Positions 52,349 to 56,311 of a stretch of DNA of 56,311 nt are shown in pieces. Made by a program: the position numbers and the translations under genes. Below the pieces are notes generated by a model that was not told the DNA's origin, searched no databases, and saw only the letters and a program-made list of their open reading frames with translations. This DNA is from Acidocella sp. Its GTDB lineage: Bacteria; Pseudomonadota; Alphaproteobacteria; Acetobacterales; Acetobacteraceae. The first letter of the stretch is position 1; each line of letters starts with the position of its first letter. Location: assembly GCA_029077825.1 (NCBI GenBank), contig JAQNCT010000013.1:1-56311 (forward strand), given 5' to 3'.

Positions 52349-52759
52349 ATGAACGCCCAAGCTCCCGCCGAGCAACCGCCGGCTGAGCAACCACCAGCCG
52401 GCATGGCGATGATTCGCACCATCGCCATGCCGGCCGATTCCAATGCCAACGGTGATATTTTCGGCGGCTGGCTGATGAGCCAGATGGATCTGGCCGCCGG
52501 GAATCTGGCGTCACGGGTGTCGCACGGCCGCTGTGTGACCGTATCAGTTGACGCCATGAGCTTCTTGCGCCCAGTGAAAATCGGCGATGAGGTGAGTGTT
52601 TACTGCTCGTTGCTCTCGACCGGCCGAACGTCAATGAAAATCAATGTCGAGGCTTGGCGGCGGGCACGAATTACCGCGGAAGAATACCGGGTGACCCGCG
52701 CTGTGTTCACTTTTGTTGCCATTGACGCGGAGGGGCGGCCACGCGCGTTTGTGGTTTAA
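52349..52759 (+). CDS. Acyl-CoA thioesterase, YciA-like hotdog fold
   Basis: This 136-residue hotdog-fold enzyme probably hydrolyses acyl-CoAs. Conserved parts are MIRTIAMPADSNANGDIFGGWLMSQMDLAAG with the catalytic Asp region, then VSVDAMSFLRPVKIGDEV and TVYC-like SVYCSLLSTGRTSMKI. The first ~17 residues are a low-complexity duplication of AEQPP. ATG 52349 follows the trxA stop; ATG 52403 would remove the duplicated tail and cannot be excluded. Confidence 0.87.
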   Translation: MNAQAPAEQPPAEQPPAGMAMIRTIAMPADSNANGDIFGGWLMSQMDLAAGNLASRVSHGRCVTVSVDAMSFLRPVKIGDEVSVYCSLLSTGRTSMKINVEAWRRARITAEEYRVTRAVFTFVAIDAEGRPRAFVV

Positions 52760-52836: not shown

Positions 52837-54312
52837 TTGAACAGCGATAATGTAAACGTTGAAGTGGCCTTAGAAACTGGTCCTATTGGATATCCAGATC
52901 TTGGACTTGGTCTTAATAATCAAAAATTCGCCTTATTTGGGCTTTTCAACAAAGCTCGTCTAATGAATCGTCCAGTCATTCTGCCTGATTTTGTGATCTT
53001 CGATGCCAAATCAGATCGCAAAGAAAAAATTCAGTTCGCCTCAGTTTATTCTGTTGACCATATGGTCCGATTTGCCAACAGCTTCGGAATGGAAATCATC
53101 GATCAATCGCCAATCGATAATGACAATGGGTGGCATTGCTTCATTGGTGGCACTTTTACAATGGGTTTAGAAGGTAAAAAAGGGCCGGGCAGTTTAGATG
53201 ATTTTACTTGCCAGTTTTTTAGGAATTTAAAGCCCAACGTCACTAACACCCCTGTTTTCAAAAAACTTGCTGAAAATGTTTTTATCGAACGCGGTATAGG
53301 TGTTGTCGCACAGCTTCGCATCGAGAATGACTGGTTAGATGTTGGTAAACAAGCTGAAGCCAGCAACTCACCGGATAAAGATAATTATAAAATTACCTTT
53401 TTAGATATTTTATCAAAAATCAACAATACTATAGGCGCTTTTGCTAGGACGATTTATGTTGTTTGCGATGAAGCAAACCTGCCCGTCAGTAAGGAAGTGA
53501 TTCGAAAAACCATATTTGATGAGTTCGGAATTTCTTTGTTTTGGAAATCGGATATTCTTTCCAACGAAGAGTTGAAAGCATTATCACTGCTAGATTTATC
53601 AATCATTGATTTTGAAATGGCCGTTCGAGCACCACTATTTGTTGGTTTAAGTCTTTCGACATTTTCAAACCTTGCTTGTTTTGAAACATTTTGCCGGACA
53701 GGCACACCTGCAACAAATCATTATATTTATAATTGTCCTGGGCCGCATCTCATCCGCCGGACGGATTTTGGTGCAGGTGGTAGCTTGGAAGATGTTACTA
53801 GCCCTTACCATCTAAGAACGCCTCTGATCCAGGATACGCTCAATGATTGTCACTGGCCAATGTCACTAACAGCGCATATATCTCGGTATGGAGATTTTAC
53901 CACTGTTTCTGGTAAGTTTCCAGGTGTTCGAAGGGGGCATATTGTATGTGGTGTTCCTGGGGGCTTCGAGAGAACAATAGAAGGTTTTACGCTGCAATCA
54001 CTAGGTCCAATGCAGGTTGATGTTGAATATCGTGCCAAGACTGATGCTGGTGGTTGGGGTAACTGGGTTACAAACGGCTTTATTGCAGGTTCTCAAGGAA
54101 ATGCCCGACCTATAAATGGTTTTGCAGTTCGTTTGAAAGGCATCTTAGCCCTCAGCTATGAAGTAATATGTGTCGGCAGTTTTGTGGGTAGACAAAATCT
54201 TATTCAAGAGAAAGGCCACATAGGCTGTGAATCTCCTAACGGAGAGTTCTTGGAGGCAATGCAAATTATTTTCCGCCCGATTTCGTCTAATTGGCCGGCA
54301 GGCATTTTTTGA
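52837..54312 (+). CDS. O-fucosyltransferase-like protein with a ChW-like C-terminal module
   Basis: This 491-residue protein has no signal peptide or membrane segment. Residues 20-300 resemble GT-B O-fucosyltransferases: GLGLNNQKFALFGLFNKARL ending in NRPVILPDF (23-52), QLRIENDWL (159-167) in the position of the donor-binding Arg motif, and DFEMAVRAPLFVGLSLSTFSNL (258-279). Residues ~343-482 form a separate module resembling 'hydrophobic W' (ChW) repeats, with GGWGNWVTNGFIAGSQG (405-421), NGFAVRL and GCESP. The same module opens the next gene. The start is TTG 52837; base composition is AT-richer than upstream DNA. Donor and acceptor are unknown. Confidence 0.7.
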   Translation: MNSDNVNVEVALETGPIGYPDLGLGLNNQKFALFGLFNKARLMNRPVILPDFVIFDAKSDRKEKIQFASVYSVDHMVRFANSFGMEIIDQSPIDNDNGWHCFIGGTFTMGLEGKKGPGSLDDFTCQFFRNLKPNVTNTPVFKKLAENVFIERGIGVVAQLRIENDWLDVGKQAEASNSPDKDNYKITFLDILSKINNTIGAFARTIYVVCDEANLPVSKEVIRKTIFDEFGISLFWKSDILSNEELKALSLLDLSIIDFEMAVRAPLFVGLSLSTFSNLACFETFCRTGTPATNHYIYNCPGPHLIRRTDFGAGGSLEDVTSPYHLRTPLIQDTLNDCHWPMSLTAHISRYGDFTTVSGKFPGVRRGHIVCGVPGGFERTIEGFTLQSLGPMQVDVEYRAKTDAGGWGNWVTNGFIAGSQGNARPINGFAVRLKGILALSYEVICVGSFVGRQNLIQEKGHIGCESPNGEFLEAMQIIFRPISSNWPAGIF

Positions 54313-54353
54313 AAATTATCGAAACTGACTACACAATTAAAAGGCAGGATGCA

Positions 54354-56311
54354 ATGTCAGGTTCAGAGTTTATAAAGCCATCTGCAGCAGCTGAGATGCA
54401 AGCAAGCGAAATACAGTTTAACGGCTCACTCACTGTCCATCTCTCAGGTATAGGTGACATTAAAAACACAGTAAGCCTATCAGGTGGTTTTCCATCTGAC
54501 CCCAGCCATATGATTGAGGGTTTTTGTGTTGAAATGGACCCTGGTTGTTCTTACCAATTCGAGTATATGGCTGTCACAAATGAAAATATCCCTAGTGGCT
54601 GGGCAAGAAATGGCATATTTGTTGGCAGTCGCGGGCTGGACGGTAGGATCATAGGGTTTGCAGCGCGGATGATTAGCAATCATGAACCGCCTCTGGAATG
54701 CTTATGTATTGGACAATTTGTTGGCTCTGAAGACTTAATTGAAGCTGTGGATAGTGAACTCTGTGAAAGTCCAGATAAGTCACCCTTACTGTCCATGAAA
54801 ATTATTATTCGCGAAGCAGTTTCGTACAAAGCTAGAGCCTTGAAAAATCATGCTGTTGTTTTTGGCCATAGTCATGCAAAAATAATTAAAAATGCTCAAG
54901 AAAAATCAAGAGATTTTTCTTTAACATTAGATTGTAATGTTATTGAAATGATCGGTAAATATTCTCCTTTTTCAAAATTTGAAAATGGGAGTGAGGTTTA
55001 TCATCAAGAATTTTTAGCAGATTTAGAAAAAACTGTGCGCGATCACCGTCCATCAATCTTAGTTGCGCTGATGAGTGGGCTGGAGATTATGATTACAATT
55101 CGGGCCTATAGTATTAAACCCTTTTATGTTCTGGGGGATAATGCTGAAATTGAACAGTCCACTTTATCATCTTACCCACAAGATAAAGAACTACTTCCAG
55201 CAAGCGCTATCTATTTAGACTATGTGGAGCTAATGCGTCCATGGATAAAAGCGCTACCTATGGTGAGACGCCGATTTAATTTGCCCGTAATTATGCTCAG
55301 CCCACCACCTCCAATTAGCGATGACGAATCTTACATCAGATATATGCCCGAGGAGATTCGCTTAGACATGCGGCGCTCCATGCCACCATCTGTCACGCGC
55401 TACCGTGTTTGGACAATCTGGATGCAAGCTGTCAAAGATTTATGTGTCGAATATGGAGTTGTTTTTTTCCCACCACCTGAAACAACAATCGATTCAAAAG
55501 ATGGTGGTCTCGCACTGCTTTATCATGGCGATGGGTTGCATGCGAATGAGCATTACGGGGCAGCACAAATTAAAATGGTTGAGACGTATTTAGCCGGCAA
55601 TTACACACCACCTGAAGTTAACGCCTTTTCTAAAAAAAACAATAAAAATAGTAACCCATATAGTTCTTTACCAAGCGAAAATTTTTGGCGCTCCTCAATT
55701 TCTGATCGGGCAATGAGCAGCGTTGATCCGGTTGCAAAAGCTAAATTTAAAATTACAAAAAATGATAAAATTGCTACGGCAGGCAGTTGCTTCGCGCAGC
55801 ATATTGCGCGGCATTTGAAAAGCAGTGGTTTTACCTACTATGTTAGTGAGCTACCTCACCCCGTTATACCGCAAAATATTGCTGAGCAGATGGGTTACGG
55901 AATGTTCACAGCACGTTACGGTAATATCTACACAGCTCGTCAGTGGCATCAACTGCTTGAAAGAGCCTACGGTATTTTTGAACCGATCGATGACGTCTGG
56001 CAACATGGCAGTGGCTTTGTTGATGCCTTTCGTCCTCGCATTGAGATCAAACCACTTTACTCTGAAGCGGAGGTACGATTATTGCGAGAGTCGCATTTTA
56101 AAGCTGTCCGCCAAGCGGTAGAAAACGCCGATTACTTTATTTTCACATTAGGGCTTACTGAGTGTTGGATATCCAAGCTTGACGGCGCTGTTTATCCAAT
56201 TTGTCCTGGCGTTGCTGGCGGAGTGTTTGATAATACGCGCTACGAATTTGATAATTTCACAGTCTCTGAAGTAGTAGCTGATTTACAGGCTTGCTATACT
56301 TTTCTGCGCGC
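54354..56311 (+). CDS. ChW-like / SGNH / GSCFA multidomain protein (partial, runs off the window)
   Basis: The frame stays open from ATG 54354 (AGGA four bases upstream) to the window end, at least 652 residues. TTG 54309, overlapping the previous stop, is an alternative start. Residues ~26-153 repeat the module of the preceding protein (SGWARNGIFVGSRG at 81-94, IIGFAARM, CESP at 137-140). Residues ~165-420 look like an SGNH hydrolase: VVFGHSHA with Ser173, and HGDGLHANEHYG with Asp393 and His396. From residue ~470, IATAGSCFAQHIARHL and TLGLTECW mark a GSCFA domain. Esterase or acyltransferase action on a glycan is inference. Confidence 0.7.
   Translation, partial: MSGSEFIKPSAAAEMQASEIQFNGSLTVHLSGIGDIKNTVSLSGGFPSDPSHMIEGFCVEMDPGCSYQFEYMAVTNENIPSGWARNGIFVGSRGLDGRIIGFAARMISNHEPPLECLCIGQFVGSEDLIEAVDSELCESPDKSPLLSMKIIIREAVSYKARALKNHAVVFGHSHAKIIKNAQEKSRDFSLTLDCNVIEMIGKYSPFSKFENGSEVYHQEFLADLEKTVRDHRPSILVALMSGLEIMITIRAYSIKPFYVLGDNAEIEQSTLSSYPQDKELLPASAIYLDYVELMRPWIKALPMVRRRFNLPVIMLSPPPPISDDESYIRYMPEEIRLDMRRSMPPSVTRYRVWTIWMQAVKDLCVEYGVVFFPPPETTIDSKDGGLALLYHGDGLHANEHYGAAQIKMVETYLAGNYTPPEVNAFSKKNNKNSNPYSSLPSENFWRSSISDRAMSSVDPVAKAKFKITKNDKIATAGSCFAQHIARHLKSSGFTYYVSELPHPVIPQNIAEQMGYGMFTARYGNIYTARQWHQLLERAYGIFEPIDDVWQHGSGFVDAFRPRIEIKPLYSEAEVRLLRESHFKAVRQAVENADYFIFTLGLTECWISKLDGAVYPICPGVAGGVFDNTRYEFDNFTVSEVVADLQACYTFLR

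Follow-up and report, generated by a model that had tools for sequence, protein, structure and literature searches.

Two neighbouring genes at the end of the window, which is the entire 56,311-nucleotide contig C59 of an Acidocella sp. genome (G000; 112 contigs, 2.55 Mb), encode two different enzymes that carry the same ChW-like module: an O-FucT-like glycosyltransferase (gene 1) and a GSCFA-domain protein (gene 2). The module recurs on other enzyme families and, as part of a stand-alone "core" protein, in a conserved type I secretion locus of related genomes. We see about an even chance that, through the module, cytosolic enzymes dock on a common acceptor of this core locus, where they would add variable decorations before export. 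The wider proposal is held more tentatively: that most Acetobacteraceae may possess a dock-and-decorate glycoprotein system, in which the type I locus yields an exported glycoprotein and a cytosolic ChW-triplet docking handle on at least five enzyme families lets strains exchange sugar, methyl and acyl decorations by exchanging the enzymes that bear it. Both open reading frames (ORFs) are present in the same direction at the positions named by an earlier, sequence-only reading of the window, and their parts are arranged as follows:

52837..54312, + strand: gene 1, predicted O-FucT-superfamily glycosyltransferase domain with a C-terminal ChW-like module; 491 aa, TTG start
52837..53827, + strand: O-FucT-like domain of gene 1, residues 1-330, with invariant motifs and PDB profile matches
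53860..54285, + strand: ChW-like module of gene 1, residues 342-483, with the Pfam ChW core at 406-435
54354..56311, + strand: gene 2, module followed by SGNH-like and GSCFA regions, counted from the more probable ATG start; truncated where the contig ends
54426..54821, + strand: ChW-like module of gene 2, ORF residues 46-177 by profile bounds
54834..55640, + strand: SGNH-like middle region of gene 2, GxSH ... DxxH by eye; unconfirmed by Pfam or PDB
55767..56306, + strand: GSCFA domain (PF08885) of gene 2, by Pfam; cut by the contig end

Local alignment of the two proteins gave a score of 166, whereas 200 shuffles of gene 2 averaged 37 and did not exceed 57. In the profile-to-profile comparison that the sequence-only reading had asked for, the O-FucT-fused and SGNH-fused modules aligned at 99.9% (E 1.8e-35), and the negative control, the module against the O-FucT catalytic profile, reached 0.1%; the module shared by both proteins is thereby borne out. 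The bounds first drawn by eye (residues 345-482 in gene 1, 26-153 in gene 2) are close to those set by profile, residues 342-483 in gene 1 and ORF residues 46-177 in gene 2, i.e. 25-156 counted from the ATG at 54354, giving a module of ~135 residues. Gene 1 scores above the Pfam ChW cut-off (24.1 vs 22 bits), the core protein matches ChW with 29.3 bits, and for gene 2 ChW was not listed at E 10. Within the module, repeats 2 and 3 align at 92.7% and repeats 1 and 2 at 67%, with only 10.9% for repeats 1 and 3; column-shuffled repeat 1 reached at most 0.3% against repeat 2 in all five trials. Judged by its sequence, the module is most readily taken as a single ChW-like triplet, in keeping with a proposal that these repeats function in threes (PMC5817068). 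Across 53 rows, six residues of the module (H, G, Y, W, G, F) are invariant, and a sequence search of solved structures with the module returned no relative up to E 10. The Acidocella genome holds a third copy of the module in a 288-residue protein on contig C108.

To describe which enzymes carry the module, the fusion survey took every genome of the order in which the module matched at least twice, or once and weakly: a set of 33 genomes (G148 from the family sample only) together with 10 others; small fragments (G027:C266, G213:C143), copies assigned as core by score and the second match of G109, which holds stops, were left out. O-FucT fusions were the most numerous, with 14 proteins in 11 genomes, followed by methyltransferase (11), GT61 (10), GT90 (4) and SGNH-GSCFA (3) fusions; the L036 protein combines both methyltransferase and GT61 with the module, and a module protein in L157 has no Pfam match and appears GT11-like by eye. 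The Pfam cut-offs were passed by all ten GT61 and all four GT90 proteins and, for the methyltransferase domain PF13578, by 5 of 11. The L158 protein, without O-FucT at E 0.01 in Pfam, and the first L164 protein, which had no Pfam scan, both match a purpose-built O-FucT profile. Some of the additional copies are second core-like proteins (L147-L150, L152; partly by eye). The module sits at either end of the enzymes, and one GT61 enzyme has two modules. Mapped on a tree of 76 modules, the partner labels require 13 changes, the least possible being 6; for GT61, at least 4 changes are placed by supported branches, with many forks left open. The sequence-only reading had proposed that the module targets enzymes to one substrate, and the presence of the same module on five Pfam-named enzyme families speaks for that idea; the binding itself is what we infer.

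The module profile matches 256 of 395 genomes of the order, and 136 of the 200 genomes in a family sample match gene 1, mostly through the module. In a class sample matches drop to 7 of 337 genomes, three of the seven lying outside the family, and among plasmids two Azospirillum records match the gene 2 module. Matching genomes are mostly single-copy. Where flanks were read, which was the case for part of the 256, the single copy is a core protein of ~300 residues encoded between glycosyltransferase (GT) genes in a type I secretion locus. All 11 genomes with long core loci (≥14 kb) have the ABC exporter, HlyD, Sel1, a large TPR-GT2-GT4 protein and GT4; in the short loci, GT4 is present in 72 of 75 and the large GT in 74 of 75, some genomes being counted more than once. 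The HlyD of the Acidocella genome scores over the TIGR01843 cut-off, and its ABC protein is best matched to TIGR01846, under the cut-off of that family. The N-terminal ~130 residues of the core protein (N-terminal half of L008 8886-9752) are conserved and match no Pfam family; a second module copy in this domain was considered and rejected (hhalign 0.6% and 0.2%).

Divergent loci vary this arrangement. Outside the family, three relatives carry the module on the large GT itself (L092, L093 and L094, the last on a 5.4-kb contig), and L095 has the complete core gene set, including ABC and HlyD. An RTX protein (PF00353) adjoins a glycosyltransferase or core gene by Pfam in L092, L093, L095 and L153, and the adjoining protein in L154 is 80% identical to the RTX protein of L153, giving five divergent loci with RTX in all.

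Enzyme fusions are found in 32 genomes of the order, and the core is also present in 29 of these. Fusions thus occur in 29 of 252 core genomes and in 3 of 143 others (Fisher p 8e-4, ignoring kinship). The ~252 core genomes are the 256 matched ones minus G049, G267, G302 and G213 (match cut by the contig end), and most count as core by score, single strong matches being taken as core. Among the 29 fusion genomes, a core copy was seen with GT neighbours in 23 and assigned by match score alone in six (G288, G179, G096, G092, G027, G185). As to the cellular site, the N-terminal 12-residue hydropathy maximum was 1.71 or less in all 42 fusion proteins, compared with 2.00 or more in three reference ORFs whose products presumably have signal peptides. 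The test is crude, the starts being partly uncertain; by it, no clear signal peptide or membrane span was seen in the fusion proteins, which presumably act in the cytosol.

These features can be combined into a mechanism in which the shared module would be a portable docking domain, one ChW triplet working in the cytosol. The core locus, with its type I ABC exporter, HlyD adaptor, Sel1 protein, large TPR-GT2-GT4, core module protein and second GT4, would assemble a glycan on an exported acceptor, or for one, and an RTX protein would be the likely cargo. Accessory enzymes bearing the module may then dock either on this acceptor or on the core complex and, ahead of export, introduce decorations that differ between strains, gene 1 by adding a sugar and gene 2 by adding or removing an acyl group. 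The RTX match of the Acidocella genome (L114 340-2637, G000:C98) is a 765-residue protein that by eye resembles a serralysin-type protease with RTX and Hint-like parts; it is a possible type I cargo. Repeat-rich proteins, AIDA-repeat-like by eye, are encoded near module-bearing enzymes at L033 1131-4322 (1,063 residues) and L035 8407-11787 (1,126 residues), and are possible acceptors.

Several observations weigh against docking on a type I acceptor. Three fusion genomes (G049, G267, G302) have no core, and the co-occurrence test takes no account of kinship and relies on a core assigned mostly by score. One of 33 core proteins reaches the hydropathy of the signal-peptide controls (12-residue maximum 2.04). 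Outside the family, L092 and L093 show glycosyltransferases with no ABC or HlyD match within the available flanks, and ABC and HlyD accompany the locus in one of three loci with flanks (L095). An RTX pattern scan of 11 ordinary long core loci found none, and the single RTX match of the Acidocella genome is on another contig than its core locus. Some cassettes contain neighbouring enzymes free of the module, a methyltransferase in L104 and an O-FucT in L029; therefore, not every enzyme docks through it. Furthermore, none of the 11 genomes with O-FucT fusions has a GDP-fucose synthase over the cut-off, and relatives of gene 1 and gene 2 also occur separately.

Part of this evidence is open to other explanations. 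The module could be an assembly domain that binds another module or the core protein and gathers the enzymes into a complex, blind to the acceptor. The core protein as a stand-alone copy between two glycosyltransferases, the module on the large GT in L092-L094 and the GT61 enzyme with two modules would all be expected of such a domain; it is difficult to reconcile with fusions in three genomes without a core copy, and we regard it as unlikely. Also improbable, in our estimate, is that the module binds a general envelope glycan, such as a lipopolysaccharide or exopolysaccharide intermediate, in the manner of a carbohydrate-binding module, with the type I locus merely neighbouring one copy. GT61, GT90, methyltransferase and GSCFA are typical partners in polysaccharide clusters, the core-less fusions in G049, G267 and G302 are accommodated, and so is the failure to find an RTX cargo gene in ordinary core loci; against this stand the enrichment of fusions in core genomes and the constancy of the core locus in 11 of 11 long loci.

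Two further explanations have very little probability. ChW is known from Gram-positive surface proteins and endolysins (PMC5817068), and the module might accordingly anchor secreted enzymes at the cell surface; in the crude hydropathy test, 0 of 42 fusion proteins reach the N-terminal values of the signal-peptide controls, which makes surface anchoring of this kind unlikely. Methyltransferases and nucleotide-sugar enzymes, moreover, need substrates that are cytosolic. Hardly more credible is a regulatory or stability tail with no shared target, spread only by gene fusion in glycan islands: relatives of gene 1 and gene 2 are indeed found apart, but the module has changed partners repeatedly while its six residues stayed invariant.

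The assignment of the N-terminal part of gene 1 to the O-FucT superfamily is supported by sequence profiles. Alone, the protein scores under the Pfam cut-off (28.3 vs 31.5 bits), as do 9 of the 11 whole fusion proteins scanned, gene 1 included, the other two scoring over it; O-FucT is found at E 0.1 or better in 10 of 10 relatives. The profile of these 10 relatives, searched against the PDB, has its best match in POFUT1 (3zy2, presumably the Caenorhabditis elegans protein; E 9.6e-5), and POFUT1 or POFUT2 chains make up eight of the nine matches listed up to E 10, only 3zy2 falling below 0.001 and the remainder at 0.06 or more. Invariant in the 10 relatives are R161, E163, D165 and W166, and F268, G270, S274, F276 and S277. 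The O-FucT-like domain named by the sequence-only reading therefore stands at the level of the superfamily, with the POFUT1/2 matches and the 10 relatives as its basis.

The donor sugar is a separate matter, and transfer of fucose by gene 1 is unproven. As a certain activity it was not upheld, given the scores for GDP-fucose synthase and gmd. The closest to a GDP-fucose synthase among the 11 carriers is a match in G288, about 1 bit short of the cut-off (498.9 vs 500 bits). In the Acidocella genome itself, a GDP-fucose-synthase-like gene is present only as an 82-residue N-terminal ORF near a contig edge, and the gmd-like gene is slightly under its cut-off (397 vs 415 bits); the dehydrogenase adjoining that gmd-like gene was tried as GDP-fucose synthase and rejected (71 vs 500 bits). 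Among genus members, 10 of 38 have gmd-like genes over the cut-off and several more fall slightly under it; because they are found in members with and without gene 1, these genes fail to single it out. Two observations on neighbouring glycosyltransferases may be recorded: at L185 2399-3735 (G000:C85), near the contig edge, an ORF that is GT11-like by eye stands beside the N-terminal GDP-fucose-synthase-like ORF, and a GT2-like gene of ~270 residues lies directly 5' of the O-FucT-module gene in L159, L160, L167 and L172 (by Pfam for L160 only).

For gene 2, the sequence-only reading had named SGNH and GSCFA domains, of which the second held. GSCFA is found in gene 2 by Pfam with E 1.7e-20 (74.3 bits vs a cut-off of 25) and in the complete ortholog in L104 with E 8.8e-51; a further ortholog, in L102, is 65% identical and had no Pfam scan. 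The SGNH part gained no Pfam or PDB support: in six members of the middle region no Pfam family matched at E 10, and the search of the PDB gave no SGNH match, its single, unrelated match being at 0.24. By eye, GxSH and DxxH are kept in all six members, and the oxyanion-hole position reads GGN or VGN in three stand-alone relatives and SGL in gene 2 and its two orthologs. The middle region can thus be called SGNH-like at motif level only, an unconfirmed assignment. The possibility that it is a relative of GSCFA was tried, with no signal (0.5%). Three genomes of the same genus contain, free of the module, a split pair of an SGNH-like ORF and a GSCFA ORF (L107 7708-9482, L108 3007-4877, L109 7780-9539), next to a gene resembling glutamine synthetase (judged by eye for L108 and L109); gene 2 has the appearance of such a pair joined to the module. 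A 2022 review states that neither function nor structure was known for the GSCFA family (PMC9487903).

The listed ORF of gene 2 starts at a TTG at 54291. The ATG at 54354 is the likelier start because a ribosome-binding-site-like stretch, seen by eye, precedes it. Upstream of the two genes lies one further feature:

52349..52759, + strand: small hotdog/thioesterase-like ORF of the upstream flank, by eye; it also adjoins gene 1 relatives in L004 and L103

The continuation of gene 2 was found as a 146-codon ORF, 75% identical to an ortholog, at the edge of contig C20 in this genome, where it adjoins membrane-dipeptidase-like and MutY-like genes (by eye). Dipeptidase-like and MutY-like genes recur past the gene 1 region of G347:C73 and behind a gene 2 fragment in G766:C344; on account of this recurrence, gene 1 and gene 2 appear to form a two-gene insert between the thioesterase-like and dipeptidase-like genes. 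The cassette site in G347 (L103 3611-7968, G347:C73) has gene 1 and, after it in the place of gene 2, an FkbH-domain protein (TIGR01686), a TPR protein and a 258-residue ORF.

A survey for the gene pair found gene 1 orthologs and full gene 2 orthologs in the same three of 38 genus genomes (G000, G288 and G347), and a partial gene 2 in one more, G766; L004 and G288, which have the same 490-residue gene 1 relative, were counted once. Co-occurrence of the pair in these genomes therefore holds, and constant adjacency does not. In G347:C73 the gene 1 ortholog stands without an adjacent gene 2, in G288:C92 the gene 2 ortholog stands without an adjacent gene 1, and an obligatory paired unit is accordingly not borne out. 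At G347:C14, a gene 2 ortholog, a module-free methyltransferase and a more distant O-FucT-module gene are found together; in the other loci of these relatives, gene 1 and gene 2 are separate. Overall, the initial observation of a module shared by two enzymes is confirmed and its interpretation partly supported.

Each component belongs to a known family, and the comparison with known systems brings out what differs. The module shares with ChW (PF07538) the repeat motif, the GW/GS core and a triplet-like arrangement, whereas the known ChW proteins are Gram-positive surface proteins and endolysins; here the module is in Gram-negative bacteria, without a clear signal peptide, and on glycan-modifying enzymes. 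Gene 1 resembles POFUT1/POFUT2 (PF10250) in its profile match to 3zy2, in weaker matches to 4ap5, 5kxq and others, and in the R-x-E-x-D-W and F-x-G ... S-T/S-F-S motifs, but it is bacterial, lacks a clear signal peptide and carries a ChW-like module, and a supply of GDP-fucose is not evident in most carriers. GSCFA, a family of the SGNH clan, is in gene 2 fused to an SGNH-like region and the module. Cytosolic glycosylation of secreted adhesins before export is known from the autotransporter heptosyltransferases, HMW1C and GtfA/GtfB of the SRR glycoproteins. In those systems, as proposed here, the protein is modified by cytosolic enzymes ahead of its export; the differences are type I secretion, the shared ChW docking module and an acceptor that is putative. 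In the literature on ChW, GSCFA, type I secretion with glycosylation, bacterial O-FucT and Acidocella, in which subscription papers were thinly covered, we did not find the architecture described; a ChW triplet across five enzyme families, together with a core locus linked to type I secretion, is apparently undescribed.

If the proposed docking on a shared acceptor is true, a Gram-positive surface repeat domain would be linked to intracellular glycan modification in Gram-negative bacteria, and GSCFA, an uncharacterised family of acyl enzymes, would gain a testable substrate. Were the docking real, the module would be a ready handle for steering enzymes to one acceptor. The results would also point to a widespread glycosylation locus, linked to type I secretion, in acetic acid and acidophilic bacteria.

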